From the IMG/VR virus record IMGVR_UViG_3300034066_000840, positions 1-35,446 of that record: a stretch of 35,446 nt of DNA; one strand, given 5' to 3'. Below, piece after piece: positions 3,382 through 25,634 of the stretch. Position 1 is the first letter of the stretch. Each line of letters starts with the position of its first letter. Position numbers and translations under genes: made by a program. Origin of the DNA: a virus. The notes under the pieces are model-generated. The model saw only the letters and a program-made list of their open reading frames with translations, ran no database searches and had not been told where the DNA came from.

Positions 3382-3387
3382 ATCTTA

Positions 3388-3416: not shown

Positions 3417-3425
3417 TTTCTTAAA

Positions 3426-3441: not shown

Positions 3442-3455
3442 TACGACACACGTGC

Positions 3456-3483
3456 ATTTTTATGCGGGGAAGTGCATAAAAAT
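3456..3483. terminator. Perfect 10-bp hairpin after the 3492-4662 operon
   Basis: ATTTTTATGC (3456-3465) and GCATAAAAAT (3474-3483) form a perfect stem around an 8-nt loop, 8 nt after the stop codon at 3492. The stem carries its own A/T tracts rather than a separate U tail, so termination is plausible but not certain. Confidence 0.5.
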
Positions 3484-3491
3484 ACTTTTAC

Positions 3492-3734: not shown

Positions 3735-4054
3735 TACTCTAACCCCAATCCTAATTCAAATCCTAAGTCTTCATTATAGTCCTCAGTGTTTTCTGGCAAC
3801 CATGCATGCAAGTGGTGTTGCTCAATGATAGCCCACACTGGCGCAGAAGTTTCACCCTTGTAGAATACACCATCTGGCATTTCGATAGTTTCGTCCCACA
3901 TGTCCTGGTGAGCAAAATCAATTGCTTCAATACATACTGGAACCATCATTAGTGGTACTGGTGGATAGTGATTACCTTGTAAGTGATAACCAATAGCCTG
4001 TTCAAGGCTTATGTCAATGTTTTCTGCTAAGTCTTGTGCAAAATTACTTCCCAT
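3734..4054 (-). CDS. Hypothetical 106-aa protein
   Basis: An acidic protein with a central hydrophobic stretch (PPVPLMMVPVCIEAIDFA, residues about 31-48) and a His-rich EQHHLHAWLP segment. I do not recognise it. The ATG at 4054 directly follows the upstream stop and is preceded by GGGGG, a plausible ribosome binding site. It is the fourth gene of a five-gene minus-strand operon. Confidence 0.7.
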   Translation of the reverse strand: MGSNFAQDLAENIDISLEQAIGYHLQGNHYPPVPLMMVPVCIEAIDFAHQDMWDETIEMPDGVFYKGETSAPVWAIIEQHHLHAWLPENTEDYNEDLGFELGLGLE

Positions 4055-9255: not shown

Positions 9256-9441
9256 TTAATTAAAAACGCCTTTAACTTCAAGATCATCATAGATCATACC
9301 AAACATATGTTGCAATGCTGGATACTGGCCATCAATGTTTTTTGTAATATCAGCATCGCTCATCTTGGCTTGCTTCATTAGGTTGATGTTATAACCATTT
9401 ACTGTTTCAATCATAATTTCAATTACTTCGTGTCGGTTCAT
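9256..9441 (-). CDS. Hypothetical 61-aa protein
   Basis: I use the ATG at 9441 because it overlaps the upstream stop as ATGA and follows AAAAGGA; an ATG two codons earlier lies within the upstream gene. The product (MNRHEVIEIMIETVNGYNINLMKQ...) is helical and acidic with no recognised family. It is translationally coupled to the DHH-like gene and converges on the SGNH-like gene. Confidence 0.65.
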   Translation of the reverse strand: MNRHEVIEIMIETVNGYNINLMKQAKMSDADITKNIDGQYPALQHMFGMIYDDLEVKGVFN

Positions 9442-10208
9442 GCCCATTCCTTTTCTTGATCGTAAGTTACAGAATACTCTCCTGTAAATATCTCTGCATA
9501 AGAGATGATATCTCTATTATACCTTATAAGGGTTTCTATGCCAACTTTGTCACATACATACTTCATACCCTGGACTAGTGGCTCAAACTTCATCTCCTGC
9601 CCTGCTAGGGCGTTATTAAGGGTATCTATGTAACGAGTCTTGCCATAACGTTTTGATGTAAATGATTGATCAACATAATCAAACCTTGCTTGTGCATCAT
9701 TTCTTTTTGCAATGTCCGAATTGTCTGTTATGTACTTTGTTGCAGGATGTTCCATCCGTGTAGACCAGTTTCGCATGTTATCGCTGTATTTCTCCATGTT
9801 CTTTAGAGTTGAGTCAGCGAAAGCCATGCGTATAAGGTCTTGTTCGGATAGGTCAGCCTCTATTGCGAACGAAATCAAAAAAGCGGTTGCGAAAGGAAAC
9901 TTGTCGCTATATGTCGAAACGCCGAAGTGCACATTCGGATTAAACGACTCGACTGACATATTATCTTCTAAGAGTCGCATATGGTTGCCGAGAGATACAT
10001 ACTCTTGACGATTCATATCGCAGTCGACGAACAAGCATTCTTCTGGATTGATCCCGTCGGCGAGACACAAGATATTTTTGTCATACGAACCAACTATTTT
10101 CGAACCGTTAAAACGCTCTAGTAATTTTGCGGACATAAAACCATCCATGTCAGGGGATATAATTAAATTCTTAGAATGCTGAAGCGTATCAAGTATGTCT
10201 GTTTTCAT
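9438..10208 (-). CDS. DHH-like phosphoesterase
   Basis: A 256-aa protein. LIISPDMDGFMSAKLLERF near residues 15-33 resembles motif I (HxDxDG) of the DHH superfamily, with Ser in place of His. CLFVDCDMNR at about 58-67 fits motif II, GNHM at 73-76 could stand for the DHH triplet, and FADST at about 129 may be motif IV. DHH enzymes include RecJ nucleases and small-molecule phosphoesterases; the substrate here cannot be told. Between about 9841 and 10140 the gene is unusually CpG-rich. A weak -10 (TATTTT) lies 6 nt before the ATG at 10208. It is divergent from the gene at 10241. Confidence 0.5.
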   Translation of the reverse strand: MKTDILDTLQHSKNLIISPDMDGFMSAKLLERFNGSKIVGSYDKNILCLADGINPEECLFVDCDMNRQEYVSLGNHMRLLEDNMSVESFNPNVHFGVSTYSDKFPFATAFLISFAIEADLSEQDLIRMAFADSTLKNMEKYSDNMRNWSTRMEHPATKYITDNSDIAKRNDAQARFDYVDQSFTSKRYGKTRYIDTLNNALAGQEMKFEPLVQGMKYVCDKVGIETLIRYNRDIISYAEIFTGEYSVTYDQEKEWA

Positions 10209-10225
10209 TTTTGTAAAATACCCCT

Positions 10226-10231
10226 TATAAT
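10226..10231 (+). promoter_or_regulatory. -10 element upstream of 10241
   Basis: TATAAT ends 9 nt before the ATG, giving at most a 3-nt leader. No ribosome binding site is seen. Confidence 0.55.
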
Positions 10232-10240
10232 AATCTAGTT

Positions 10241-10507
10241 ATGACAATCCAGGACTGGGCTTCGCTAATCGTAGCCATACTTACAATTGTATCATCACTA
10301 GGACTTTCAATCAAGTGGCTTGTCAAACATTATCTCAGCGAACTTAAACCAAATTCTGGATCTTCGCTAAAAGACCAAGTCAATAGACTTGAAACTGCTT
10401 TGGACGAACAAAGAATTGACTCTATTAGATCTAGAGATCGCCAAGAAAAGAAACTTGACGAAATGTATCAGATTTTGATTAAGCATATTGCTAAAAACGA
10501 TAAGTAG
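10241..10507 (+). CDS. Small membrane protein with coiled-coil tail
   Basis: An 88-aa protein. Residues about 6-28 form a transmembrane helix (ASLIVAILTIVSSLGLSIKW). The rest is charged and heptad-like (LKDQVNRLETALDEQRIDSI), likely a coiled coil facing the cytoplasm. Size and topology would suit a holin-like or phage membrane-anchor protein, but no sequence signature proves it. It is followed by a 270-bp gap with tandem promoters. Confidence 0.6.
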   Translation: MTIQDWASLIVAILTIVSSLGLSIKWLVKHYLSELKPNSGSSLKDQVNRLETALDEQRIDSIRSRDRQEKKLDEMYQILIKHIAKNDK

Positions 10508-10622
10508 TAATTTACTATATACTATATATAAAGATAGTTTTTAAAACTATAAGGATATTCTTTTCTCTTATATATATTTTAAGTATACACTATCCCAATC
10601 TTGGCAAATAGTTCTAAAAGTA

Positions 10623-10682
10623 ACAAATCGGACATTGGCTATTATAACAATTTGATAACTTTAAATATCATGTCCGTTTTGT
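10623..10682. promoter_or_regulatory. 13-bp inverted repeat with CGGACAT core
   Basis: ACAAATCGGACAT (10623-10635) and ATGTCCGTTTTGT (10670-10682) match at 12 of 13 positions as inverted repeats. The core AAAWCGGACAT also occurs at 256 and 6850 beside promoters, so this is a candidate phage operator. Confidence 0.5.
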
Positions 10683-10689
10683 ACCTTTA

Positions 10690-10698
10690 TGGTATAAT
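10690..10698 (+). promoter_or_regulatory. Extended -10 promoter (upstream of a tandem pair)
   Basis: TGG-TATAAT. The predicted start of transcription at about 10705 precedes the 10707-10760 hairpin rather than an ATG. A TTG at 10705 is in frame with the gene at 10777 but is an unlikely start. Confidence 0.6.
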
Positions 10699-10704
10699 TT
10701 ATTA

Positions 10705-10760
10705 TTGGCTAATACCTTGGTTTGTCCTATACCCACCAACCTTGGTATTAGTCAATTTTT
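10705..10760 (+). ncRNA. Candidate small hairpin RNA / attenuator
   Basis: GGCTAATACC (10707-10716) pairs with GGTATTAGTC (10744-10753). Inside, TTGGT (10717-10721) pairs with ACCAA (10735-10739), giving about 15 paired bases. Five T follow (10756-10760). With its own extended -10 just upstream this could make a RNA of about 56 nt, or serve as an attenuator before the second promoter. Confidence 0.42.
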
Positions 10761-10761
10761 A

Positions 10762-10770
10762 TGGTATAAT
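10762..10770 (+). promoter_or_regulatory. Extended -10 leaderless promoter for 10777
   Basis: TGG-TATAAT ends 6 nt before the ATG at 10777. Confidence 0.75.
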
Positions 10771-10776
10771 CACAGT

Positions 10777-11172
10777 ATGCCTATTCATTCATCCCTGACT
10801 TTTGGTGCTGATCCAGTAACCATGCAGTGGAGTGTTGTCAGAGGAGATACTGCTACTTTAAGAGTAGAGTTTTATGAAGACAATGAAGTAGATTATTACG
10901 ATACTTCTGGCTGGATTTTTAGAGCAACCGCTTATGATCAATCTGGAAATGTTCTAGATGCCCTTGAATGTGAGCCTGGTGAGGGATTTGTAGATATTAC
11001 AGCATACCCATCGGTTACAAAAAATTGGGGATCAAAATACTCATCAATCGTGGCTCAACTACCATTTGACGTACAGGTAACAATTCCAGAATTAATAGAA
11101 GACACAGTTTGGACTCCTGTAATTGGAACCATACATGTGTTAGGCGACATCACACCAGGGGGTACACTATAA
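10777..11172 (+). CDS. Tail-fibre/baseplate adaptor, BppU N-terminal-like
   Basis: A 131-aa beta-rich protein. Its core, QWSVVRGDTATLRVEFYEDN, followed by a WIFRATAYD strand pattern, is paralogous to the product at 19273 (RWTVVRGDSAAFRVYVTND). It resembles the Ig-like N-terminal domain of phage baseplate upper proteins (BppU) and similar fibre connectors. I chose the ATG at 10777 because TATAAT lies 6 nt upstream; there is no ribosome binding site. The stop overlaps the next ATG (TAATG), so it is coupled to the collagen-like fibre that follows. A role in attaching fibres is inference. Confidence 0.68.
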   Translation: MPIHSSLTFGADPVTMQWSVVRGDTATLRVEFYEDNEVDYYDTSGWIFRATAYDQSGNVLDALECEPGEGFVDITAYPSVTKNWGSKYSSIVAQLPFDVQVTIPELIEDTVWTPVIGTIHVLGDITPGGTL

Positions 11173-12053
11173 TGGCAGTTATTAAGATTGTTCCAATGCC
11201 AGGCGCAGTTGGAGACAAGGGAGACGAAGGAGCCATAGGCCCAAGAGGTCAACAAGGCGAAACAGGTTTACAGGGCCCAGCAGGTGCTGATGCGCTATGG
11301 TCTTACAATGGTCAATACAACCCAGGTGCAGGATATGCAGTTGGAGATGTTGTAACATACCAAGGACAACTTTGGTATCGTAAGAATTCAAATGGTGGAA
11401 ATGTCGGAGACACACCATCACAAGGTTTGTTCTGGGACTTACTTGCAGCAAAGGGTGAAGACTGGACTAGTCAAACATCAAATGGAATGTGGGACACAAA
11501 CATAAAGGCGCAATCAGGTATTTCTGGTGGATACAGCATAGGACTTAACTTCCCATCAATGGGAACATATACAAAAATGGGCAATGTCGTAAACTTTTAC
11601 TTTACATATAACCTGTCAGATGAGTTTATGGGTCAGGCATACCCAGTATCGTACAACAGTTCTTCAGACAGCAACTTTTCATTTAAACTTCCATTTCCAA
11701 TAGCGCAAAGTATTCATGGTGTAGCATCATCCTTTAATGGATATGATTATGCAATGAATAACTATGTTTTTACTGGTAGATTTTTTGGTAGAGTCGATTC
11801 ATCTCTTCCTGCAGGAGAGTTCAACCAACCAGACGAAGAAGGTTGGACAGAGGTCCATGGAATTGGTTTTACACATGAAGACCCAAATAACAGACAGTCT
11901 TACGTTATTCTTTCTTCTCAAGATTTTGAAGATATAAACACCAATAGCAAAAGATGGAGAAATATGTCTCACTCCTGGCCATTTGATTTTTCAGGAACTA
12001 CAGGACATAGATACTTCCAACTTCAAATCAGTGGCACATACATCTCTGAATAA
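11172..12053 (+). CDS. Collagen-like tail fibre with carbohydrate-binding-like module
   Basis: A 293-aa protein. Residues 11-40 are ten uninterrupted Gly-X-Y triplets (GDKGDEGAIGPRGQQGETG), a trimerising collagen-like stem. Then WSYNGQYNPGAGYAVGDVV and LWYRKN at about 43-72 resemble a small chitin-binding-type (CBM5/12-like) module. The C-terminal 200 residues are beta-rich and probably form the receptor-binding tip. The ATG at 11172 overlaps the upstream stop and follows AGGGGG. A neighbouring predicted prolyl hydroxylase (16829) raises the question of whether such stems are modified. Confidence 0.75.
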   Translation: MAVIKIVPMPGAVGDKGDEGAIGPRGQQGETGLQGPAGADALWSYNGQYNPGAGYAVGDVVTYQGQLWYRKNSNGGNVGDTPSQGLFWDLLAAKGEDWTSQTSNGMWDTNIKAQSGISGGYSIGLNFPSMGTYTKMGNVVNFYFTYNLSDEFMGQAYPVSYNSSSDSNFSFKLPFPIAQSIHGVASSFNGYDYAMNNYVFTGRFFGRVDSSLPAGEFNQPDEEGWTEVHGIGFTHEDPNNRQSYVILSSQDFEDINTNSKRWRNMSHSWPFDFSGTTGHRYFQLQISGTYISE

Positions 12054-12058
12054 TATCG

Positions 12059-12067
12059 TGAGATAAT
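12059..12067 (+). promoter_or_regulatory. Extended -10 leaderless promoter for 12074
   Basis: TGA-GATAAT ends 6 nt before the ATG. Confidence 0.65.
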
Positions 12068-12073
12068 GTCTCT

Positions 12074-12805
12074 ATGGCTGTTTCTAAATCTATGGATTTT
12101 CCAGGTGCAAAAAAGTCTTCATATGCTGCACAAGTAGAACAAAGTCAAGCATCTCCTACTGTAGATAATTCACTTTCATTTCTTCCAGTCCCTGGCCCAG
12201 TCGGACCACAAGGACCTGCAGGTAGAGACGGTAAAGACGGAAAGCCAGGACCTGAAGGACCAGAAGGAAAGCCAGGACAAAAAGGTGATAGAGGTTTTCC
12301 AGGAAAAGACGGCCTAAGTTCTTTATCATCTTCAGGACAGCAAGCAGGTTGGGCTTCATACACTAACACTATTGACAAACCAACAAAACTTGGAGTATCT
12401 CAAGGAAACGATGGCTGGGTAACACTTTTGTTAGACACGAAAGACAAATCCCAAAATGAAAAATACCTTCCTAAAGGATGTACTAGCCTTTGGAACAGCC
12501 ACCAAAGAGCCCTAAACTTCCACGGTATAAACGAAGGCTCCCAAGTATTCATAACATACAACTTTGAACTAACTACCTATACTGCCAATACTGAGGTTTG
12601 GCTAAGGACGTACTTTGCAAATAAGGATCAGGAGTTTGTACAGTTTGTTGGCTCCTTGAAGTATCAAAATGTTTATAACCTTTCAGTTACCCAAAATATC
12701 TTTATCGAAGACAACTCTATGTGGCTAAACGGAGCAGTCCCACAACTTAGAACAGATTTTGATGCATCCGTAATTATCAATTCTATCTACGTCAGCGTGG
12801 TATAA
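12074..12805 (+). CDS. Collagen-like tail fibre
   Basis: A 243-aa protein. A Ser/Ala-rich N-terminus is followed at residues 41-82 by fourteen Gly-X-Y triplets, including Pro in the Y position three times (GKP twice, GFP once), the classic site of 4-hydroxylation in collagen. The C-terminal 155 residues look like a compact beta-sandwich tip (WLRTYFANKDQEFVQFVG). No ribosome binding site; GATAAT is 6 nt before the ATG. Its end overlaps the promoter of the next gene. Confidence 0.75.
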   Translation: MAVSKSMDFPGAKKSSYAAQVEQSQASPTVDNSLSFLPVPGPVGPQGPAGRDGKDGKPGPEGPEGKPGQKGDRGFPGKDGLSSLSSSGQQAGWASYTNTIDKPTKLGVSQGNDGWVTLLLDTKDKSQNEKYLPKGCTSLWNSHQRALNFHGINEGSQVFITYNFELTTYTANTEVWLRTYFANKDQEFVQFVGSLKYQNVYNLSVTQNIFIEDNSMWLNGAVPQLRTDFDASVIINSIYVSVV

Positions 12806-12806
12806 T
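12798..12806 (+). promoter_or_regulatory. Extended -10 leaderless promoter for 12813
   Basis: TGG-TATAAT ends 6 nt before the ATG and overlaps the last codons of the preceding fibre gene. Confidence 0.75.
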
Positions 12807-12812
12807 AAAACC

Positions 12813-13301
12813 ATGGCATTTCCAGCAATTTATGACTTTAATTACTACAAGGGTGATACCTTTGAGTTTCGTATCTACCCGAAAAAGAACGATGGTACGG
12901 TCTTTGATTTAAGCGCATTTTATGTGCCTACAAATTTTGCAAACAACCCAGACGATGTAACTGACACAACAGCGCCATATGATAGTGCCCAGTTTACAAT
13001 TGCTCCAGTCAGAGGTAGATATACCGTTGTTAATGGTGTTACAACAAATATAGAGGTTACGCCAATAAAGTGTTTTGCTAGAGTTTCAGATGACAATACT
13101 TTTGTTCAGTGTGCAATCAGACCAGCAGAAGGAGAGTCTCTTATCGCTGGCACAGAATATGTCTATGACGTTGAAGTAAGAAAGCCAGCAGGACTTGCAG
13201 GAAGTGGAAGTTATGAAGTTGTTCAGACTTTACTAACTGGAAAAATTACAATTACAGATCAAGTTACAGGCGCTACGTCTGCAACTAAGCCAGGTGTTTA
13301 A
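12813..13301 (+). CDS. Fibre/baseplate adaptor, BppU-like N-terminus
   Basis: A 162-aa beta-rich protein. FNYYKGDTFEFRIYPKKNDG at about residues 9-28 shares the [KR]GD-[ST/D]-x-x-x-[FR]-[RIV] pattern of the products at 10777 and 19273. The C-terminal GKITITDQV strand is also comparable. It is leaderless by its -10 position. The stop overlaps the next ATG. A connector or assembly role for the adjacent fibre is inferred. Confidence 0.62.
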   Translation: MAFPAIYDFNYYKGDTFEFRIYPKKNDGTVFDLSAFYVPTNFANNPDDVTDTTAPYDSAQFTIAPVRGRYTVVNGVTTNIEVTPIKCFARVSDDNTFVQCAIRPAEGESLIAGTEYVYDVEVRKPAGLAGSGSYEVVQTLLTGKITITDQVTGATSATKPGV

Positions 13302-13897
13302 TGGCAGACATATTGTTATCAAACGATGACTTAACAGTTTTTGGTGGACCAGAAAGTATAAGTCTTGACCTAGATGTAGGACCACAAGGAGATCGTGGAA
13401 GCATTATCATTGGAACTCTTGGAGATCCAAGGGATGCAACTGTTAGATCATACATAGTTCAAGATGTTCAAGCCCTTGATATTGCGGTAGACGTAAACCC
13501 CAACTCAACAACATTTAAAAGTCTATTTCAATTAGTTGCAACACCAGCAGGACTACAGTGGACTCCAGTGGTTAGCCTAAAAACAGATTTTTATTCTTCT
13601 ATTAAAACCGTAACTGCTGCAAATGGAAAACTTACAATTCCTCCAATCAATGTAACAGACATTTATCTGTTTCAGGAAAATAGTACCGTAGATTCTTCTA
13701 ACTTTAGCGTACAGTATTCTATATCATCACCAGACTCTGGTGGTCCACTAGCAACAACCTTAGTTGTAAAGGAATTAACAGATGGACCAGGATTTTTAGC
13801 ATTACCACTTGAAATAAAGGGTGTAGAATATGATGGAACGGCATGGGTCCCTATAACGGGCACTAAAAACGTCCACCTATTTATTACGGTGGTATAA
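13301..13897 (+). CDS. Small tail-fibre protein with short collagen-like segment
   Basis: A 198-aa protein. A short VGPQGDRGS segment at about residues 27-35 is a truncated Gly-X-Y stem. The rest is beta-rich and resembles a fibre tip (VTDIYLFQENSTVDSSNFSVQ). The ATG at 13301 overlaps the upstream stop, so it is coupled to the adaptor-like gene at 12813. Its last codons contain the promoter of the next gene. Confidence 0.62.
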   Translation: MADILLSNDDLTVFGGPESISLDLDVGPQGDRGSIIIGTLGDPRDATVRSYIVQDVQALDIAVDVNPNSTTFKSLFQLVATPAGLQWTPVVSLKTDFYSSIKTVTAANGKLTIPPINVTDIYLFQENSTVDSSNFSVQYSISSPDSGGPLATTLVVKELTDGPGFLALPLEIKGVEYDGTAWVPITGTKNVHLFITVV

Positions 13898-13898
13898 T
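13890..13898 (+). promoter_or_regulatory. Extended -10 promoter for 13917
   Basis: TGG-TATAAT. Unlike its neighbours it leaves a leader of about 13 nt containing an AAGGG ribosome binding site before the GTG. Confidence 0.65.
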
Positions 13899-13916
13899 GA
13901 AAAAGGGTGATTTATA

Positions 13917-16565
13917 GTGGCAGAAGAGAATATTGACAATACCGTCGGTGGTACTGGGCTCTTCAATACCAAAATCCCTGGACTTTCAGATGCAGCCGAT
14001 ATTCAGGCAGCCCTTAGACTTTATCACTATGGAACATATACCTACGACGGTGCAAACACAAACCCAGCGATACTTCCAGTACCGTCTATGGCAAAGCATC
14101 TTCAAAATCTTGTCGAAGCAGATGCAGCAGAAATAGTAAATAGAAATGCTGCTATTGCTGTAGAAACAGCAAATAGAAACACTGCAATTTCAAACCACAA
14201 TGCAGCAACCACAAATGTCCACGGTATATTAAACACAGCACTCCTTGCAACAAAAGAGTATGTAGATACAGAAATACTAGATGCAATTGATGGTGCAACA
14301 GGCGCTTATTCAGAACTTGCTGGAACTGGTCTTGATTGGAATTCTGCTGATGACAGGTTTGATGTCGAGCCAAGAATTTCAAATGTTAATACCTTAGTAA
14401 CAAAAACATCTGACTTTACTTTAGAGTTAAACGATGTTTCAAAAACAATACTAATTGATTCTTCATCTGCAGTAACTGTTACCATTCCAACTAATGCAAA
14501 TGTTGCAATTCCAGTAGGATATCAATTTAACTTAATAAGAATTGGTTCTGGCTCTGCAGAAATTAGACCAGCCACAGCACCTATATACTTAAAGTCAAAA
14601 GCGTCAAACATTGTAGGTGGACTTTCTTATACTCCAGTTCCAGGAATGCCAACACCTCCAACATCTTTGCCATTTGTTGGGCAATATTCAAAAATAACTA
14701 TCTTAAAAATTGATACAGACATTTGGGTTGCATATGGTGATATTGACGAAGAATCAATTGTAAATCCAACACAGGTAACGCCTGTAACACCTGCTGTAAC
14801 ACCTGCTGTAACACCTGCTGTAACACCTGCTGTAACACCAGTTACTCCAGTAACACCTGTAACCCCAGTTACCCCTGTAACACCAGATGTAACCCCTGTA
14901 ACTCCAGTAACTCCACCAGTCACACCTGTAACTCCTCCAGTAACTCCAGTTACACCAGTTGAATGTGGAGAATGCGAATCATATACAGAAACTGCACCAA
15001 CTTGTAACGGAGAAGATAGTTACGTAGGTATTTATAGTGGAACTCGTAAAACATGCACCGATGGAAGTTTTGTTATTTGTACTCAGCCTACCCTTACTGG
15101 ATTTGGTGAATGTCTTGCCACTAACGTAAGTTCTTGTGGTGGGTCAGGTGGCTCAGGCGGATCTTGTACTCCTGCAGTAACACCAGTAACACCAGTGACT
15201 CCTCCAGTTACCCCTGTAACTCCACCAGTAACACCCGTAACTCCTCCAGTAACTCCAGTTACACCATTTGAGCCAAACTGTAATGATGTAAACACATTAG
15301 GATCTGGTGATTGTGCTGCTTGTGGACTAGTTTGGTCTCCAGTGTTTGGAGAATGTATTCAGCCAGAAGTTACACCTTCTGTAACTCCTGTAACTCCCCC
15401 TGTAACTCCAGTAACTCCACCAGTCACACCTGTAACTCCTCCAGTAACTCCAGTCACACCACCTGTAACTCCAGTAACTCCAGTTACACCATTTGAGCCA
15501 AACTGTAATGATGTAAACACATTAGGATCTGGTGATTGTGCTGGTTGTGGATTAGTTTGGAACCCATCATTTGGTGAGTGTGTTGAACCTTCAGTGACAC
15601 CTGTTACTCCAGCAGTGACACCTGTTACTCCAGCAGTGACACCTGTTACTCCAGCAGTGACACCTGTTACTCCAGCAGTGACACCTGTTACTCCAGCAGT
15701 GACACCTGTTACTCCAGCAGTGACACCTGTAGACCAGTATGGTTGCCCTCCAGGATACACATGGAATGCATCATTTGGTGAGTGCATAGTAAGTTCAGTC
15801 ACACCTGCTGTAACACCAGCAGTAACACCAGCAGTAACACCAGCAGTCACACCTGCTGTAACACCAGCAGTCACACCTGCTGTAACACCAGCAGTCACAC
15901 CAGATGAGACTCCGTTCTCAGCCTTCGGAGCCTTCGGTGCATTCTCAGCCTTCGGAGCCTTCGGTGCATTCTCAGCCTTCGGAGCCTTCGGTGCCTTTGC
16001 TGCATTCGGTGCATTCGGTGCATTCGGTGCTTATGGCGGAGGCCCAACACCAACATCCGTTGGCCCAGATACCTTGATTTTGACAACAACTGGATATGTT
16101 ATGGCAAAGGATCTTAAGGTAGGAGATATTCTTGTTTCAACAGACGTTCCTGGATTAGGAATGTCATTTACAAAGCAAGAAATGATAGCATGGACCAATG
16201 ATCCAGAAAATCTAACAATTATTCCAGATAAAACAACAACAGTTAAGATGGTTGGACTATCAAATGCTCCAGTTGTTGTAATGATAAATGGTGAAACATA
16301 CTCAGGCACCCATCATTTACTTACAAAGAGAGATGACGTTGCTCAGATGATTTTGTCCGCAGACCTTTTGACCACAGATAAATTATGGTCTACACAAACA
16401 AATACATGGATTGATATAGTTGATTTAGTTATAACACAACTTGATCACCAGGTTGTTTCTATTAACTGTGAACCACTAGATATTTTCTTTACAGAAAACT
16501 TCTTAGTCTATGATGGATACCAAATAGACTACCCATTGCCTGACTCAGATCCTGTGGTAGAATAA
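13917..16565 (+). CDS. Large mosaic tail fibre with TPVTP arrays, AFGAFG array and C-terminal Hint-like domain
   Basis: An 882-aa protein with GTG start and AAGGG ribosome binding site. The order is: N-terminal fibre region with [19 protein letters not shown] (about 100-118); a beta region to about 280; TPVTP/TPAVTP arrays interrupted by two near-identical cysteine modules ([13 protein letters not shown]...CGLVW...FGEC) and a shorter third (CPPGYTW...FGEC); an [12 protein letters not shown] array (about 665-703); and a Hint/intein-like domain (714-868). The Hint evidence is [18 protein letters not shown] (block A-like), YSGTHHLL (block B-like) and [19 protein letters not shown] (block F-like). 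The usual first Cys is Ser and the final His-Asn is Tyr-Asp, so splicing is doubtful. The last two modules recur at 24024-25634. Function is inferred as host adsorption. Confidence 0.7.
14776..15905. repeat. Coding tandem repeats (TPVTP/TPAVTP arrays and a duplicated Cys module)
   Basis: Short repeats of 9-18 nt (ACACCTGCTGTA, ACTCCAGTAACACCTGTA, GTGACACCTGTTACTCCAGCA) occupy most of 14776-14960, 15172-15265, 15370-15490, 15592-15730 and 15797-15905. A stretch of about 50 nt encoding the Cys module is repeated almost perfectly at 15267 and 15491. Such arrays are prone to length change by slippage or recombination. Confidence 0.85.
15916..16034. repeat. AFGAFG-encoding 9-nt tandem repeat, copy 1
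   Basis: Repeats of TTCGGTGCA / TTCGGAGCC with TTCTCAGCC variants encode Phe-Gly-Ala and Phe-Ser-Ala units just before the Hint-like domain. Confidence 0.85.
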
Positions 16566-16610
16566 TATATTAATGTGTTTTATTTTTAAAAATAACGGAA
16601 GGTTAAAATT

Positions 16611-16829
16611 ATGGAAAAATCTGATAAGGAACCAAGAGACGTTAAGCCCTGGGATCTCATAAACCCAAATAGTGAATGGGCAACCGAAGATGTTTCATCT
16701 GAAAGATATTCTATCTGTAAAACATGTCCAGAATTAATTAAGTTAACAAAACAATGTAAAAAATGTGGCTGTTTTATGGCTGCAAAAACAAAACTACAAA
16801 AAGCAACCTGTCCAATAGGAAAATGGTAA
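16611..16829 (+). CDS. Small zinc-ribbon protein (DUF6171-like)
   Basis: A 72-aa protein with CKTCPELIKLTKQCKKCGC, then FMAAKTKLQKATCPIGKW: two CxxC pairs plus a later Cys, as in small phage zinc-ribbon proteins often annotated DUF6171. The ATG at 16611 follows GGAAGG. Its stop overlaps the start of the oxygenase gene (TAATG), so the two are made together; it may assist or regulate it, which is inference. Confidence 0.65.
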   Translation: MEKSDKEPRDVKPWDLINPNSEWATEDVSSERYSICKTCPELIKLTKQCKKCGCFMAAKTKLQKATCPIGKW

Positions 16830-17428
16830 TGAATAAAAAAGAATTAGTTCCAGGTATTGTTGTTTATTCTAACGCCATAGATTACGATGGCTCTTTAGTT
16901 ATTGACATAGAAGAAGGAATGTCTAGTGCAAAAATAGACTGGCAGTTGGCTGGTGTAAAATCAGGGTACGAAGAAGCCAAAGAAAATAAAGAACTTAGAG
17001 ATACTTTTATAGTGCCAGTTCCATACAATGACCAAGAGATAAAAGAATTTGCTACTTTAAGGGATGCATTTTTTTCATCTCTTTCAAACCTATTTCTTGA
17101 AAACCTTGGTCCACTTGAAAATGATTATAAAGTTGGATATGGGCTTTCTACAGACTGGCATGACCAATATAGCATATTAAAATACGGAGTAGGTCAAAAA
17201 TTTGTTAATCATATTGACGACCATAAAGATTATCATAGAAGGATGTCAACAATATACTATATTAATGACAACTATGAAGGTGGTGAGATTGTGTTTCCAA
17301 GATTTGGAATAACATACAAACCTGCAGCAAACGATTTTATTGTTTTCCCATCAACATATGTATATAATCACTCTGTTCTTCCAGTTATTGAAGGAACACG
17401 GTACGCAGTAGTCAGTTGGTTAACATAA
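16829..17428 (+). CDS. Prolyl-4-hydroxylase-like Fe(II)/2-oxoglutarate oxygenase
   Basis: A 199-aa protein of the P4Hc type. The iron site is His128-x-Asp130 in FVNHIDDHKD and His181 in YNHSVLPV; Arg191 in GTRYAVVSW is placed to bind 2-oxoglutarate. YINDNYEGGEIVFPRFG between them is typical of the family. These enzymes hydroxylate prolines or other residues using O2 and 2-oxoglutarate. The start at 16829 overlaps the upstream stop and has AGGA 8 nt before; an ATG two codons earlier is less well placed. It is followed by a second predicted oxygenase with TAATG coupling. The fibre proteins nearby, which contain Gly-X-Pro and Thr-Pro repeats, are the obvious candidate substrates (inference). Confidence 0.85.
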   Translation: MNKKELVPGIVVYSNAIDYDGSLVIDIEEGMSSAKIDWQLAGVKSGYEEAKENKELRDTFIVPVPYNDQEIKEFATLRDAFFSSLSNLFLENLGPLENDYKVGYGLSTDWHDQYSILKYGVGQKFVNHIDDHKDYHRRMSTIYYINDNYEGGEIVFPRFGITYKPAANDFIVFPSTYVYNHSVLPVIEGTRYAVVSWLT

Positions 17429-18000
17429 TGATAGATATGGGTTTGGTTGAGCAAGCAAGGTTAGAGAATAGAATTCATATATTCAAAAATGTTTTTACAG
17501 ACTTGCCATCACTAGACACTATAATGTCGGTAGTCTCAAATTATGTTTCCGAAGATTTAAAATCTTTTCCAGATAGATCATACCTTTTAAATGATTTTGT
17601 TGAAGGAGAGTCTTCTGACATGAGGCTAAAGTGTAGATTTTGGTCAAGAATGGCCTTTCAACTTTATGACACACAAGATCTTTATATGTCAATAATTCCA
17701 GAACTTGCTCCAGTAACTCAGTGGGGGCTTTCTCAATACCCAGAAGAAATATATACTGGAAACTTTTGTTTAGTATCTTTGATGAAAAATAGGGGAGTAG
17801 TTGGAAGCAAGCACAGAGACTACGTTGATCAATTTCAATGGGTAGTTAAGGGTGAAATGATTTGGCGTACTGGAGAGAACTTAGAGAATGAAGACCATGT
17901 GGTAGAGGGCGACTTTATATTTGTTCCTAAAAATCTTGCTCATGAGGTTGAAACAATAAAGGCTCCAAGAGCAGCAATAAATCTTATTTTAAGAAACTAA
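17428..18000 (+). CDS. Cupin/JmjC-like oxygenase
   Basis: A 190-aa protein with a C-terminal double-stranded beta-helix pattern: KHRDYVDQFQWVVKGEMIW, giving candidate metal ligands His129 and Asp131; GDFIFVPKNLAHEVETI with His172; and Arg181 for the co-substrate. This is the HxD...H arrangement of JmjC and cupin-like Fe(II)/2OG enzymes. It is coupled to the P4H-like gene by TAATG. Family and substrate are uncertain; a plain cupin is possible. A terminator follows at 18004-18028. Confidence 0.62.
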   Translation: MIDMGLVEQARLENRIHIFKNVFTDLPSLDTIMSVVSNYVSEDLKSFPDRSYLLNDFVEGESSDMRLKCRFWSRMAFQLYDTQDLYMSIIPELAPVTQWGLSQYPEEIYTGNFCLVSLMKNRGVVGSKHRDYVDQFQWVVKGEMIWRTGENLENEDHVVEGDFIFVPKNLAHEVETIKAPRAAINLILRN

Positions 18001-18003
18001 AAA

Positions 18004-18028
18004 GCACCTACAGTTTTACCATAGGTGC
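18004..18028. terminator. Bidirectional intrinsic terminator
   Basis: GCACCTA (18004-18010) pairs with TAGGTGC (18022-18028) around an 11-nt loop. On the minus strand it is followed by TTTTT and on the plus strand by a T-rich tail. It separates the convergent genes at 17428 and 18045. Confidence 0.8.
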
Positions 18029-18044
18029 CTTTAGTTCTTATAAT

Positions 18045-18608
18045 TTACTTGGGAAATTTAGACATCCAGGATTTAGTCCTTGGAGTCATGCCTTTCCAGG
18101 CAATCCAGTTTTCTCCACCATTACTCATGTGGTATGCAATCTGTGCATTAAGGACTGGGTTAAAAAGTTCAGCATTTGCAGATAACTCAAACTTGTCTCT
18201 ACGATCAGGACCAAGGGAGTCAATCATATTAATCTGGAATATTCCGTATGAGGAGTCTCCAGTGCTTTCATTTCCGTTAAAAGCCAATGGTCGACCATTA
18301 GACTCCTTCTTTGCTACAGCCCAAGCCTCAATAAGGTTTTGGCCTTTGAAGCCAACTAGGGATAGCATCTTCTTTAGTTCTAAATCTGTAAGAGATGTCT
18401 TGTTTGCAAAACTCTCCAACATTTTTTCCTTAGAAACCAAAAAAACCTCTTTCGAGGTTGTTTCCGCTGACTGAGCCTGTTCAAGGCTAAGGTTATTTTT
18501 CGTGCTTAGTTCTGGGGTAGCATTAGCAGCATTAGAAAATACACTGACAAGTGCCACGATACTGAGTGTGCTAATGATCTCTTTGTTTCTTTCGATAAAT
18601 TTAATCAT
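18045..18608 (-). CDS. Exported lysozyme/transglycosylase-like enzyme
   Basis: A 187-aa protein. It has a signal peptide (basic MIKFIERNKE, hydrophobic IISTLSIVALVSVF, likely cleavage after ANA at residue 30). The C-terminal half has AVAKKESNGRPLAFN with candidate catalytic Glu102, SYGIFQINM (121-128), then NPVLNAQIAYHMS and a W-x-x-WKG end, the pattern of the lysozyme-like/SLT fold that cuts peptidoglycan. The ATG at 18608 has an ideal AAGGAGG ribosome binding site. It is the only minus-strand gene in the late region, with its own promoter at 18656-18678. It could be the endolysin or a muralytic superinfection or entry factor. Confidence 0.75.
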   Translation of the reverse strand: MIKFIERNKEIISTLSIVALVSVFSNAANATPELSTKNNLSLEQAQSAETTSKEVFLVSKEKMLESFANKTSLTDLELKKMLSLVGFKGQNLIEAWAVAKKESNGRPLAFNGNESTGDSSYGIFQINMIDSLGPDRRDKFELSANAELFNPVLNAQIAYHMSNGGENWIAWKGMTPRTKSWMSKFPK

Positions 18609-18629
18609 AGTTTCCTCCTTAGAAAACAA

Positions 18630-18649
18630 TAACACCCTGGTAGGTGTTA
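18630..18649 (-). promoter_or_regulatory. 5' leader hairpin of the lysozyme-like gene
   Basis: TAACACC and GGTGTTA form a 7-bp stem with a 6-nt loop in the leader, 10 nt upstream of the ribosome binding site. It could influence translation or mRNA stability. Confidence 0.45.
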
Positions 18650-18655
18650 CTACCA

Positions 18656-18678
18656 AGTATAACATAAAATTATGTCAA
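18656..18678 (-). promoter_or_regulatory. Promoter for the lysozyme-like gene
   Basis: TTGACA (18678-18673), 11-bp gap, TGT-TATACT (18661-18656), the same layout as the left-arm promoters. An alternative -35, TTGACT, lies 18 bp from the -10. Confidence 0.62.
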
Positions 18679-18695
18679 AAGTCAACTTTATAGGG

Positions 18696-18704
18696 TGGTA
18701 TAAT
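18696..18704 (+). promoter_or_regulatory. Extended -10 leaderless promoter for 18712
   Basis: TGG-TATAAT ends 7 nt before the ATG. It is divergent from the lysozyme-like promoter. Confidence 0.72.
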
Positions 18705-18711
18705 AAATATT

Positions 18712-19260
18712 ATGCCTGTATCATCATCTAACTATCCTACCATGAAGTATCCTATTGCTTCAGATCCCGTCAATGTACACGGAGATTTTAAGGTATTGGT
18801 TGATGCTTTAAATAATATTTTACCACCATTGGGAATGACTAGTGTTTCTTCTCCTGTAAGAAATAATAATAGTTCTACATTAATTGCTGGAACTCCCGTC
18901 TATATTTCGGGAAATGTTTCTCATGGTGGACAGATGAAAACGACGGTAGAAAGATATAACCCATCAAGTTCAACCCATAACCCAGATTCACCTATTCTTG
19001 GATTAATACAAACAGGAATCCCTGGATTAAGCGATGGTGTTGCAGTTGTTTCTGGAGTGCTACAAATGAATACAACAGGACTTGGATCTCCTGGAACTAA
19101 AGTTTATATAAACTCTAGCGGAGAACTTGTTGGTGGAAGGCCTTTAACTGGCCCAGCAAGATATGTTGCTGTAGTTGCGGTTCAAGGAACACAAGGTTTG
19201 ATAGTTGTTCAGACAAAAGGCAACGGTACATGGGGAGCATTAAAAGACGGATTGTCGTGA
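18712..19260 (+). CDS. Virion surface/fibre protein, beta-rich
   Basis: A 182-aa protein with LIAGTPVYISGNV, then a repeated beta pattern (GLSDGVAVVSGVLQMNT, GSPGTKVYINSSGELVGG). This is reminiscent of small decoration or fibre-associated domains, but no family is certain. The start is leaderless (no ribosome binding site, -10 at 7 nt). Its location among fibre genes suggests a structural role. The stop codon TGA forms part of the next promoter. Confidence 0.6.
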   Translation: MPVSSSNYPTMKYPIASDPVNVHGDFKVLVDALNNILPPLGMTSVSSPVRNNNSSTLIAGTPVYISGNVSHGGQMKTTVERYNPSSSTHNPDSPILGLIQTGIPGLSDGVAVVSGVLQMNTTGLGSPGTKVYINSSGELVGGRPLTGPARYVAVVAVQGTQGLIVVQTKGNGTWGALKDGLS

Positions 19261-19266
19261 TATAAT
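19258..19266 (+). promoter_or_regulatory. Extended -10 leaderless promoter for 19273
   Basis: TGA-TATAAT ends 6 nt before the ATG; the TGA is also the stop codon of the upstream gene. Confidence 0.72.
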
Positions 19267-19272
19267 AACATT

Positions 19273-19662
19273 ATGGCAACTTTTAGAAACCAACCCACAG
19301 ATTCTTATGCACTAGGTGCAGCACCACCAGAAATCAGGTGGACAGTTGTCCGTGGAGATTCAGCAGCATTTCGTGTTTATGTAACAAATGATGCAAGAGT
19401 TCCTCTTCTTCTTGAAGACTGGGAAGTTGCTATGGATATCTATAGACCTTCTACTGATGATGTTGTTTTGTCTTTATCCCCTGAGCCAATTGAGTTTCAG
19501 GATGAAGAAGGAAGTTTTACAGTTAAATTAACATCTGCACAATCTCAACTTCTTGAGACAGGAGATATCTTCGACATACAACTCACAGAACTTCTATCAG
19601 AAGGCAGAGTTTGGACGGTAGCCAAAGGCTCAATGGTTATCCTTGAAGATGTAACACAGTAA
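19273..19662 (+). CDS. Fibre/baseplate adaptor, BppU N-terminal-like
   Basis: A 129-aa protein, paralogous to the product at 10777 (RWTVVRGDSAAFRVYVTND; GRVWTVAKGSMVILEDVT compared with VWTPVIGTIHVLGDIT). It has the same leaderless start arrangement and is coupled by TAATG to the short gene that follows. Its function as a fibre connector is inferred from the BppU-like pattern. Confidence 0.66.
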   Translation: MATFRNQPTDSYALGAAPPEIRWTVVRGDSAAFRVYVTNDARVPLLLEDWEVAMDIYRPSTDDVVLSLSPEPIEFQDEEGSFTVKLTSAQSQLLETGDIFDIQLTELLSEGRVWTVAKGSMVILEDVTQ

Positions 19663-19868
19663 TGCCAACACACCAATTAGCGCATGCACAGATAACGGAT
19701 CTTGATTTAAGAAAAATCCGCATAGATCATATTCAGCCAAAAGCAAGAGTTCAAGAGGTTTTGCCATTTAGAGTTAAGTTTACAAACGTAAGTGTGTTTG
19801 GATATTCCAAAACAAATCCACCCCCAATCCCATTGCAAGTTATTGGCTATAGCAACTACATTCTTTAA
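19662..19868 (+). CDS. Hypothetical 68-aa protein
   Basis: MPTHQLAHAQITDLDLRKIRIDHIQPKARVQEV... The start overlaps the upstream stop (TAATG). The phrase AHAQITDLDL resembles N-terminal tail-fibre attachment segments. It is a possible short fibre remnant or baseplate-attachment peptide. No ribosome binding site is obvious, so it is probably translated by coupling. Confidence 0.55.
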   Translation: MPTHQLAHAQITDLDLRKIRIDHIQPKARVQEVLPFRVKFTNVSVFGYSKTNPPPIPLQVIGYSNYIL

Positions 19869-20365: not shown

Positions 20366-21832
20366 ATGGCAACAGTAAATAAAGATTTTAAGATTAAGAG
20401 TGGACTTATCGTTGAGGGCCTACAAGGTACAATCAACAATAAGAGAATTCTTACAGAAGATGCAGGAGATCAATACATCCTGGACCTTATTGGTGGAGAA
20501 ACACTAGTAAAGTCAGTTTCAAACCAGTTTGATGTTTCAGCAGGTGGAGAACTTTCACTTGACCGTGCAGTAGTAGATGCTTACTACGACGCAGCAGGCG
20601 CAGCAGCATCAGCACAAGCAGCAGCAGAAGCAACTGCTTCAGCAGACGCTACTTCAAAGGCTAACGCTGCACAGGCTGCAGCAGAACTAACTGCTTCAGC
20701 AGATGCAACATCTAAGGCTAACGCAGCACAGGCTGCAGCAGAACTAACTGCTTCAGGAGATGCTACAACCAAGGCTAACGCAGCAGAGCAGAACGCTAAG
20801 GACTATGCAGATGACAAGATTAATGATGCATCATCTTCTTCAACAGAAGTTTGGTCAGCATACAAGACAAGCACAGAAATTGGTCTTGCTCAAGCAGCAG
20901 CAGAGCAGCATGCAGATGATGCAGTAGCAGCCCTTGTTGGTTCAGCACCACAACTTCTTGATACACTTCAAGAATTGGCAGCAGCACTTGACAACGATCC
21001 AGATGCAATCAACTCACTTCAGAGCATTGCAGCAGGAAAGCAAGATGAATTAACTGCAGGCGCAAACATTGACATTACAGGAGCAACAATTTCTGTAACT
21101 GGTCTTGATACTGATGATGTAGCAGAAGGCTCAAACCTTTACTTCACAAACCAAAGAGCACTTGATGCAACATCAGCAGCATACGATGCAGCAGGATCTG
21201 CTTCAGCAGCCCAAGCAGCAGCAATTGCACACGCAGATGCACTTACAACATCTGATATTGCAGAAGGCACAAACGAGTACTTCACAGATTATCGTGCAAA
21301 GGTTTCAGCAGTTGATCTTTTGACTAATGCTTCAAAGAGCAACATCGAAATCACTTGGACTAACCAAGGTGGTCTTGTTATTGCAGCAGAAAATGGTGTA
21401 GCAGGTTCTACAACAACTGATCTTGCAGAAGGTACAAACCTTTACTTCACAGATGAAAGAGCAGTAGATGCTCTTGAAGCAGTAGTTCCAAACTTCACAG
21501 CAGTTGAGGTAAACTCAGTTGCTAAGCAGGTTGCTTCAACAATGTCAGCAGCAAGCGCAGGCGCTCATGTAGGACACGCATTTGCTAAGGCAGATTACCG
21601 TTCAGCAGAGTTCCTTGTAAAGGTTGCATACGGAACACACACTGAAATCTCAAAGGTCCTTTTGACACTTGATTCTTCAGACAACATTTCAATGACTGAA
21701 TATGGCATTGTTGGAACAAATGGCTCAGCGTCATCAGTTTCAGCAAATGTTGACGGTGCAAATGTACAACTTCTAGTGACAACCACAAACAATAACTCAA
21801 CAGTTACTGTTGTCGGAACACTACTTGCGTAA
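20366..21832 (+). CDS. Tail fibre with Ala-rich repeats
   Basis: A 488-aa protein. The N-terminus MATVNKDFKIKSGLIVEG is shared with the product at 21868. Residues about 74-145 hold a triple Ala-rich repeat (AAAELTASADATSKANAAQ) likely to form a coiled-coil shaft. AEGSNLYFTNQRA, AEGTNEYFTDYRA and AEGTNLYFTDERA are fibre repeats. The C-terminal 110 residues share a tip domain with 19902. The ribosome binding site is AAGGAG; it probably shares a transcript with 19902. Confidence 0.72.
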   Translation: MATVNKDFKIKSGLIVEGLQGTINNKRILTEDAGDQYILDLIGGETLVKSVSNQFDVSAGGELSLDRAVVDAYYDAAGAAASAQAAAEATASADATSKANAAQAAAELTASADATSKANAAQAAAELTASGDATTKANAAEQNAKDYADDKINDASSSSTEVWSAYKTSTEIGLAQAAAEQHADDAVAALVGSAPQLLDTLQELAAALDNDPDAINSLQSIAAGKQDELTAGANIDITGATISVTGLDTDDVAEGSNLYFTNQRALDATSAAYDAAGSASAAQAAAIAHADALTTSDIAEGTNEYFTDYRAKVSAVDLLTNASKSNIEITWTNQGGLVIAAENGVAGSTTTDLAEGTNLYFTDERAVDALEAVVPNFTAVEVNSVAKQVASTMSAASAGAHVGHAFAKADYRSAEFLVKVAYGTHTEISKVLLTLDSSDNISMTEYGIVGTNGSASSVSANVDGANVQLLVTTTNNNSTVTVVGTLLA

Positions 21833-22334: not shown

Positions 22335-22375
22335 AAGATAAGTTAATGGGCAGCCCCCATAAGGAGAATATAAAA

Positions 22376-24023: not shown

Positions 24024-25634
24024 ATGTCAAAGCAAGCAGGTAGAATGAGTCAGTCGGCAAACGACTTTCTGACTCCATACGCACCAACAATAGGTACAGC
24101 AACAGATGTTGGAACAGCACGACCATTCAACAATGGTGCTGTATCAGTGACATTTACTCCTACGGGTCCTAATGCTGCAATAGACTTTACAGTAACAGCA
24201 AGCACAGGACAAACAGCAACTGGAGCATCTTCTCCAATTGTTGTAACTGGAATTGCTTCAGGAGCGACTCCAACATTTACAGTAACAGGAAGAAACGCTG
24301 TAGGCGTTGGACCAGCATCTGCTGCATCTAACACTGTAACAGTTACTACTGTTCCAGACGCACCTTCACTTGGAGCAGTAACAAATGTTTGCTCAGGTCG
24401 TCCATTTGGTAATGGTTTGATTACTGTTGCTATGACAGCAAACGCAACAGGTGGAAAAGCAATTTCATCATTCTATGCAATTTCAAATGCTGGACAGAGT
24501 GCATCAGGTTCATCTTCCCCAGTAAGTGTTACTGGACTATCAGGAGGAGTTGGTTATACATTCCAGGGTCGTGTTTCAAATGCAAATGGTGACTCTGCTC
24601 TAACAGCATCATCAGGTGCAGTCACTGCAACAACAGTACCTGCAACACCTGGCGCACCTTCTGCATCATCACCATCAGCAGGAACTGACTCTGTCTCATG
24701 GTCAGCACCATCAAATGGTGGTTCTGCAATCACAAACTATTACTGGGCATCTTCTGATGGTAAGGCTGGAAATACTGGTTCTACATCAGTATCAGTAGGT
24801 CAAGAACAAGGAACAGCACAGACTTACACAGTTCGTGCAGATAATGCTTGTGGTTCTTCTGCAACATCTCCTGCATCAGGATCTGTTACAACCGTATTCG
24901 CTGCATTCGGTGCCTTCGGTGCGTTCTCAGCATTCGGTGCCTTCGGTGCCTTCGGTGCCTTCGGTGCCTTTGGTGCATTCGCTGCATTCGGAGCATTCGC
25001 TGCATTCGGTGCCTTCGGTGCGTTCTCAGCATTCGGAGCATTCGCTGCATTCGGTGCCTTCGGTGCGTTCTCAGCATTCGGTGCCTTCGGTGCCTTCGGA
25101 GCATACGGTGGAGGACCACGAGCAACATCTGTTGGTCCAAATACTTTAATTCTAACTACAACTGGATATGTAATGGCACAAGATCTTCAAGTAGGAGACA
25201 CTCTTGTTTCTGCAGATGTTCCTGGATTGGGAATGTCCTTTACAAAAGAAGAGATGTTAGCATGGACTAATAATCCAGACAATCTAACAATTGTTCCAAA
25301 TGCAACAACAACAGTCAAGATGGTTGGACTATCAAATGCTCCAGTTGTTGTAATGATCGATAATGAAACATACTCAGGAACTCACCATTTGCTTGCAAAG
25401 AGAGATGGCGTTGCTCAGATGATCCTATCTGCAAATCTATTAACTACAGACAAGTTGTGGTCTACACAGACCAACTCTTGGACCGATATAGTTGATCTCG
25501 TTATAACAAACGTTGAGCATCAGGTTGTTTCTATTAACTGTGAACCACTAGATATGTTCTTTACAGAAAACTACCTAGTCTATGACGGTTATCAGATAGA
25601 TTACCCATTACCTGAACCAACACCTGAAGCATAA
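24024..25634 (+). CDS. Fibronectin-III-type fibre with AFGAFG array and C-terminal Hint-like domain
   Basis: A 536-aa protein. Three FN3-like repeats (for example GVGPASAASNTVTVTTVPDAP, GYTFQGRVSNANGD, VPATPGAPSASSP) span about 15-290. Then comes an [12 protein letters not shown] array (about 292-361), followed by a Hint-like domain almost identical in order and length to that of 13917-16565 ([44 protein letters not shown]). Cys1 is replaced by Ser and the last His-Asn by Tyr-Asp. The protein ends 17 residues later. The ATG follows GGGAG. The role of the Hint-like domain is unknown. Confidence 0.68.
   Translation: MSKQAGRMSQSANDFLTPYAPTIGTATDVGTARPFNNGAVSVTFTPTGPNAAIDFTVTASTGQTATGASSPIVVTGIASGATPTFTVTGRNAVGVGPASAASNTVTVTTVPDAPSLGAVTNVCSGRPFGNGLITVAMTANATGGKAISSFYAISNAGQSASGSSSPVSVTGLSGGVGYTFQGRVSNANGDSALTASSGAVTATTVPATPGAPSASSPSAGTDSVSWSAPSNGGSAITNYYWASSDGKAGNTGSTSVSVGQEQGTAQTYTVRADNACGSSATSPASGSVTTVFAAFGAFGAFSAFGAFGAFGAFGAFGAFAAFGAFAAFGAFGAFSAFGAFAAFGAFGAFSAFGAFGAFGAYGGGPRATSVGPNTLILTTTGYVMAQDLQVGDTLVSADVPGLGMSFTKEEMLAWTNNPDNLTIVPNATTTVKMVGLSNAPVVVMIDNETYSGTHHLLAKRDGVAQMILSANLLTTDKLWSTQTNSWTDIVDLVITNVEHQVVSINCEPLDMFFTENYLVYDGYQIDYPLPEPTPEA
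24896..25110. repeat. AFGAFG-encoding tandem repeat, copy 2
   Basis: Nine-nt units (GCATTCGGT, GCCTTCGGT, GCGTTCTCA) repeat through about 215 bp, longer than copy 1. The same unit types in different order imply independent expansion. Confidence 0.85.

Follow-up and report, generated by a model that had tools for sequence, protein, structure and literature searches.

Length-variable linker repeats in a phage tail-fibre-like gene and their match to the enzyme cassette just downstream

Threonine- and proline-rich, length-polymorphic repeats that undergo hydroxylation and glycosylation are known from eukaryotes, in mucin VNTRs and in extensin- and Skp1-type pathways, and phage-encoded 2OG oxygenases and glycosyltransferases are often unexplained neighbours of tail genes. 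In-frame tandem duplications in a phage tail fibre gene have been described for the Enterococcus phage EfV12-phi1 under host resistance, with a copy number that is variable within the phage population; according to the available extract of that report (PMC6365445), the duplicated segment measures 1.8 kb and was present in each of the four coevolved replicates and in no phage control. The BACON repeats of crAssphage are likewise repeated modules of a tail-associated protein that has grown by internal duplication, but as portrayed in the accessible portion of PMC6949934 they are folded Ig-like domains rather than low-complexity linkers between Cys modules, and no matched enzyme cassette is described there. 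Glycosylated capsids are suggested for a mycobacteriophage in the excerpted text of PMC11256854, and papers on Hint that turn up for tail fibres describe, as far as accessible, inteins in terminases and a reductase.

Here we analysed a window of 35,446 bases, a virus record from IMG/VR, in which a sequence-only reading had proposed expansion-prone coding repeats in an adhesin. Compared with EfV12-phi1, the changes at this locus are of 6-48 nt plus one 159-nt module, occur in nature and concern Thr/Pro linkers that are tied to an enzyme cassette; unlike the eukaryotic mucin, extensin and Skp1 systems, the putative system here is phage-encoded and known from genomic association with that cassette. 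The repeat region (14776-16034) lies wholly within a single open frame (13917-16565, + strand), whose 882-aa product is ordered as a conserved N-terminus, linkers interspersed with Cys modules, an FGA-repeat linker and, at the C-terminus, a Hint domain. Its parts are as follows.

13917..16565, + strand: tail-fibre-like gene, 882 aa, GTG start; one open frame; relatives known
13917..14753, + strand: conserved N-terminal part; relatives in the best 80 of 179 loci; part resembles Gordonia phage minor tail proteins
14782..14839, + strand: 12-nt array (AVTP), 100% pure by TRF; tract 58 nt in the window, 82 nt in related contigs L044 and L064
14832..14959, + strand: diverged VTP linker; synonymous codons without homogenisation
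14960..15168, + strand: first Cys-rich stretch (beginning CGECES)
15183..15259, + strand: diverged VTP linker
15244..15377, + strand: duplicated stretch, copy 1, with a Cys module
15379..15482, + strand: diverged VTP linker
15469..15602, + strand: duplicated stretch, copy 2; shares a 75-nt perfect repeat with copy 1
15592..15730, + strand: 21-nt array (VTPVTPA), 100% pure; one unit shorter in L044 and L064
15735..15794, + strand: last Cys module
15796..15901, + strand: 24-nt array (VTPAVTPA); 24 nt longer in L044 and L064
15915..16025, + strand: FGA/FSA linker array, 27-nt unit
16056..16565, + strand: Hint domain, with Ser (codon 16056-16058) at the nucleophile position, the block-B His at codon 16311-16313 and Asp (codon 16512-16514) where the terminal Asn would stand

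The identification of the product as a tail fibre or other phage adhesin stands as plausible: the gene sits among fibre-like structural genes, the record contains a portal gene, and part of the N-terminus is similar to annotated tail proteins. Conservation covers the N-terminal 279 residues, and a part of this stretch is similar to proteins from 187 phage records (182 from Gordonia phages); the 20 of these 187 matches listed are annotated as tail or minor tail protein and have 26-34% identity, a weak and partial similarity. The portal gene of the same record finds its best isolated-phage matches in Streptomyces phages (48% identity). A structure model of the N-terminus was poor (pLDDT 65.3) and its BFVD matches were not relied on. 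Elsewhere in the window, another tail-fibre-like gene carries a 57-nt coding repeat (3.1 copies at 88%, 20610-20785). The sequence-only reading had overlooked the C-terminal Hint domain, a second gene with FGA array and Hint (24024-25634) and the enzyme genes just downstream of the fibre.

TRF analysis of the fibre gene yielded arrays of 12 nt (4.8 copies, 100%, 14782-14839), 21 nt (6.6 copies, 100%, 15592-15730), 24 nt (4.4 copies, 92%, 15796-15901) and 27 nt (4.1 copies, 89%, 15915-16025) and added the diverged VTP arrays. Unit lengths range from 9 to 27 nt, so that the 9-18 nt read earlier from the letters proves too narrow, and every one is a multiple of three, bearing out the claim of tandem coding repeats that keep the frame. 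The arrays occupy 752 of the 1259 nt of region 14776-16034, where 100 dinucleotide shuffles give at most 50 nt; the repeats are genuine and coding, and they far exceed chance. A duplication of a Cys module, previously put at about 50 nt, is present and larger than that, comprising a 75-nt perfect repeat (15244/15469) within a 134-nt pair identical at 117 of 134 positions. An open frame on the reverse strand over the arrays (15359-15898) mirrors the repeats and was not counted as a gene.

The level at which the arrays repeat was assessed by shuffling codons among identical amino acids, with 5000 shuffles per array. Codon identity between units was 14/14 in the 12-nt array, 38/38 in the 21-nt array and 20/26 in the 24-nt array, values equalled in 0 of 5000 shuffles, and 20/27 in the FGA array of the fibre, equalled in 6 of 5000. 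In the three diverged VTP arrays tested, codon identity was not above chance (3242-3964 of 5000 shuffles), and in the FGA array of the second gene (24024-25634) it was weakly so (199 of 5000). Repetition in the 12-, 21- and 24-nt arrays and in the fibre FGA array is thus at the DNA level and not at the protein level alone: codons are homogenised in young arrays only, and the old arrays are repetitive as protein only.

Relatives of the fibre were collected with an N-terminal profile, and the best 80 of 179 hits were kept, 74 of them complete; the six that run off their contig were left out of the cassette and module analyses. All 80 of these best relatives have a tail composed of 45-92% P, T, V and A, with Cys residues there in 77. 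The Cys modules are shared and re-ordered among fibres, as exemplified by L065, whose modules are 85-96% identical to three of the four window modules at an N-terminal identity of 75%, and by L003, whose N-terminus is 96% identical to that of the window while its first module is from a different family and an SVTP array stands where the window has the 21-nt VTPVTPA array. Module clustering was redone at 55% and 70% after single linkage had over-merged. In GTDB genomes, 93 stretches fitted a pattern and none was confirmed. The idea of an S74 chaperone at the end of L014, which had a short motif as its sole basis, was dropped.

We then compared linkers and neighbouring genes across 51 dereplicated fibres, obtained from the 74 complete ones by removing 23 near copies or close relatives with a hand-typed list; linker composition was measured and the 4 kb downstream of each fibre were searched with profiles. 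VTP linkers are accompanied by a 2OG-Fe(II) oxygenase and a cupin, with GT61 in some cases; for Thr-rich linkers the neighbour is mostly a PF11397 GlcNAc-transferase, and for Thr-poor, Pro-rich linkers an O-FucT-like gene plus an epimerase. The cut-offs of these linker classes were chosen after the table was seen; a ranking of the fibres by Thr fraction needs none but ignores relatedness. By this ranking, a PF11397-type gene is found in 16 of the 21 fibres at ranks 1-21 and in 0/30 elsewhere, a cupin in all 15 at ranks 23-37 (0/36 elsewhere), and an O-FucT-like gene, each time with an epimerase, in all 14 at ranks 38-51 (0/37 elsewhere). No fibre of the 51 has two of these three genes. In four other Thr-rich fibres an epimerase is accompanied by a different, unnamed gene, and two (L072, L085) lack all of these. 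Taken alone, the 2OG oxygenase (36/51) and the epimerase (22/51) are not sorted by Thr rank. As a control, the 2OG, GT61-cupin, PF11397, O-FucT-like and epimerase profiles were run upstream of the fibre and matched in 0 of 65 loci (E 1e-5); the control consists of these five profiles, with the cupin covered only within the GT61 fusion and with the second oxygenase and the unnamed gene of the Thr-rich fibres outside it.

Pfam confirms the families in examples (PF13640, PF11397, PF04577 and the epimerase); for the O-FucT-like gene, Pfam support is weak in L011 (E 0.022) and L015 (E 0.0045) and none was obtained in L107. GT61 counted by its own domain occurs in 8 of the 74 complete loci, and any glycosyltransferase or epimerase in 44 of the 51 dereplicated fibres; first counts of 18/74 for GT61 and of 73 with any glycosyltransferase or epimerase were too high on account of the cupin half and were discarded. 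In 7 of the 51, six of them beside a cupin, no recognised glycosyltransferase or epimerase lies within 4 kb.

The pairing of linker and cassette recurs across the family. The best N-terminal tree implies 20 changes of linker class; supported branches force fewer than this (11, 7 and 6 when each of the three main classes is counted separately). In the three main comparisons of independent pairs on supported branches, linker and cassette change in the same sense in 7.6 pairs (p 0.008; a further 3.4 show no difference), in 6 (p 0.03) and in 7 (p 0.016), and in the opposite sense in 0 pairs each time; the comparison of TTT-only linkers with PF11397 was not significant (5 pairs, p 0.125). In these 51 relatives, linker type predicts the cassette just downstream. 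Switches of linker type have recurred within the family, and Cys modules are common to several types: modules cross linker classes in 17 of the 34 clusters that contain several fibres, and 231 of 274 linkers agree with the class of their own fibre. Such a match might also come about by neighbourhood rather than function, if the fibre tail and the genes behind it move as one recombination block, as their adjacency and the shuffling of modules among phages would allow. We consider this somewhat unlikely, given that L107 and L109 have near-identical N-termini and the same last Cys module yet differ in linkers, inner modules and cassette, and that modules up to 100% identical are found in different linker types, observations that a double exchange could nevertheless explain. 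Searches of the open-licence literature on tail fibres for hydroxylation, glycosylation, mucin-like tails, Hint and tandem repeats returned, in the texts available in part, no linker-cassette match. In-frame tail-fibre duplications are already known, from EfV12-phi1; the match is apparently new within the literature searched. Beyond the variation proposed earlier, the evidence adds another role that the repeats may have, as substrate-like linkers matched to phage-encoded enzymes.

In the window itself, the fibre is followed by three genes, the second of which is a prolyl-hydroxylase-like gene of the kind that, next to a PF11397 transferase, presumably resembles the Skp1 pathway.

16611..16829, + strand: small DUF6171 protein
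16763..17428, + strand: 2OG-Fe(II) oxygenase, prolyl-4-hydroxylase-like (PF13640, E 3e-16)
17416..18000, + strand: cupin protein; 190 residues align at 87% identity with the C-terminal third of the L003 GT61-cupin fusion

The nearest solved relatives of the oxygenase are PiuC and prolyl 4-hydroxylases (E about 5e-4). In L003 the fusion (L003:6620-8233) includes a GT61 part that the window lacks, and because no recognised glycosyltransferase lies beside the fibre in this fragment, modification in the window phage might be limited to hydroxylation or be absent. Alternative substrates are offered by two genes that contain collagen-like stretches (11109-12805) and lie upstream of both the fibre and the prolyl-hydroxylase-like gene.

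Length variation was followed in 13 groups of near-identical phages (34 contigs), drawn from the N-terminal profile relatives and a few loci fetched earlier. The window and L044, the full contig from which L002, L009, L020 and L064 derive, show 0 SNPs across 9805-18995 (9.2 kb), and they are distinguished there solely by three indels (+24, -21 and +24 nt), each consisting of whole repeat units and each in one of the pure or nearly pure 12-, 21- and 24-nt arrays; the diverged arrays are unchanged. SNP clusters between the two contigs at 9420-9804 and 18996-19838 border this SNP-free stretch and are perhaps due to recombination or to strain mixing at contig ends. Over all groups, fibre length differs in 7 of 13 and is constant in 6, and repeat number is accordingly not invariant among related contigs. 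The pair count rests on 21 of 46 pairs (13 fail filters of at least 2000 flank columns, at most 0.4% flank SNPs and at most 15 fibre SNPs; 12 are redundant within their group), those failing being pairs with L117 or L067, L137/L138, L107/L110 and pairs across the L033/L035 and L034/L036 subgroups. Over 50,580 columns of fibre, the spanning pairs differ by 9 indels and 17 SNPs, against 1 indel and 24 SNPs over 114,227 columns of flank (P=1.75e-4). All nine fibre indels are multiples of three (24, 21, 24, 48, 39, 21, 159, 15 and 6 nt), and a 9-nt difference in the partial pair L003/L045 is extra to these nine. The 159-nt indel is one whole Cys module and separates two contigs without a SNP in 6.7 kb. 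The 48-nt indel has just 5 nt of exact repeat at its ends and is therefore not simple slippage. The single indel in the flanks concerns one 30-nt unit and lies in the Pro-rich end of a different coding frame (L112 3887-5170), which makes this frame, upstream of the fibre in L112 and L113, a second length-variable gene in those phages. Pairs with L117 combine near-identical flanks with 82-83 fibre SNPs and many indels, and leaving them out lowers the counted variation; L070, L071 and L073 differ from L117 by 2-3 flank SNPs in 3 kb, as if much of the fibre had been exchanged by recombination.

The fibre linker arrays therefore gain and lose in-frame stretches, mostly whole units, between near-identical phages, in agreement with the earlier suggestion that the length of this fibre varies by slippage or recombination. 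A diversity-generating retroelement was also considered as the source of variation; no PF00078 reverse transcriptase was found in any of 8 records searched, which may be fragments. At 22346-23992 the window has a gene whose N-terminal domain matches Mtd (PF18454, E 1e-14).

Variation of this kind could be neutral, the linkers being unmodified flexible spacers whose repeat number drifts without effect while the enzymes act elsewhere, on host glycans, DNA or other virion proteins. Pure coding repeats can slip without selection, and both the groups of constant length and the 2OG oxygenase, which alone follows no Thr rank, fit such drift; that linker type and cassette switch together in independent pairs, with none in the opposite sense, and that linkers are mostly uniform within a fibre though its Cys modules are mixed, makes neutral slippage in our view unlikely. 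That the length differences are short-read assembly artefacts is improbable even for contigs from IMG/VR metagenome assemblies, since six of the nine tracts at fibre indels are just 23-92 nt, under 100 nt and able to fit one short read, changes run in both directions within one pair and one of the five contigs L102-L106 deviates in length from four that agree, although the other three tracts (139, 134 and 308 nt, the last resting on a 149-nt perfect repeat) exceed or approach the usual read length and could be assembly errors.

The last 170 residues of the fibre resemble inteins, bacterial intein-like (BIL) domains and the hedgehog C-terminal domain by fold, and weakly by profile. An AF2 model of this region (pLDDT 81.6) superimposes on 1mi8 with Z 14.8 and rmsd 2.3 over 128 aligned residues and on hedgehog 1at0 with Z 14.6, and Foldseek matches it to 38 PDB chains at E<=0.001; model residue 11 aligns to intein residue 1 and hedgehog residue 258. 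A Ser occupies the nucleophile position in 19 of 19 aligned Hint domains. Among these 19 members, curated profiles match weakly (Hint_2 in 6, best E 0.089; Hom_end_hint in 5, best E 0.002), and a profile built from the 19 matches the PDB intein 9hth (E 0.0017); the window Hint domain and the full fibre gave no match to curated Hint profiles, nor did the window domain find a match when relatives were sought among isolated phages (50,697 phage records, tblastn, E 0.01). The likeness to inteins, BIL and hedgehog comprises the fold, the Ser or Cys nucleophile position and the block-B His; the differences are the placement at the C-terminus of phage structural proteins and, in the window type, an Asp-Gly, found in 19 of 19 members where a splicing intein ends in Asn followed by Cys, Ser or Thr. 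Splicing is accordingly unexpected for the window type, as Asp-Gly replaces Asn plus nucleophile. The best structural matches, from uncultured Caudovirales in BFVD (E 2e-12 to 3e-11), are named 'Hint domain containing protein' and 'Fibronectin type III', so these names already exist for such phages, a likeness that rests on names and fold scores.

A Hint match was obtained in 12 of the best 80 of 179 relatives. Six of the 12 are of a more distant kind with Cys at position 1 and the end HNK, and a further one (L077) has Gly-Cys and HN; in the seven distant Hint fibres (L120, L123, L125, L127, L132, L133 and L077) the ends read HN-K or HN-Y, with the terminal His-Asn, and the Cys at position 1 was read by eye. 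These distant Cys-type domains possibly have fuller intein-like chemistry. Aromatic repeats (PPFF, PPYF) occur near the C-terminus in L126, L135, L137, L120, L132 and others, and in some fibres they directly precede the Hint domain in place of the FGA array. The same kind of Hint domain, again preceded by the FGA linker seen in the fibre, forms the end of one further structural gene of the window.

24024..25634, + strand: second structural gene, with an fn3-like domain, an FGA array at 24896-25110 and a Hint domain of the kind found in the fibre

Both deep Hint subtypes are found in both gene types, the fibre and the fn3-like gene; gene conversion of Hint between the genes is not claimed, as only 4 of 16 inner branches are well supported. 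From the conserved Ser or Cys we infer that the C-terminal Hint may cut itself off or transfer the fibre C-terminus.

Taken together, these data lead us to favour, as the probable explanation, a modular fibre with enzyme-modified, mucin- or extensin-like stalk repeats that vary by slippage or recombination, combined with Hint self-cleavage or C-terminus transfer after assembly. The repeats would form stalk segments in which small Cys-rich modules are joined by threonine/proline linkers, and slippage or unequal recombination would add or remove in-frame units. The linkers would serve as substrates for the phage's own hydroxylase, cupin and glycosyltransferase genes, and modification would produce a stiff, decorated stalk in which repeat number tunes both length and the count of modified sites. 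Once the fibre is assembled, the Hint domain may remove itself or transfer the C-terminus. A change in length may in turn alter reach, or binding and receptor specificity. A more specific proposal, for which we see an even balance of belief and doubt, is that array turnover re-codes the linkers to suit the phage's own cassette, such that length and glycan number and type would be rapidly adjustable, with the Ser/Cys Hint removing itself in some fibres.

What began as a guess at slippage has become a measured, natural hypervariable site in uncultured phages, and phage-encoded 2OG oxygenases and glycosyltransferases gain a concrete candidate substrate. If the linkers are modified, these fibres would represent viral stalks of a mucin-like kind whose enzyme-to-substrate code can be tested, and would give Hint domains a new setting.
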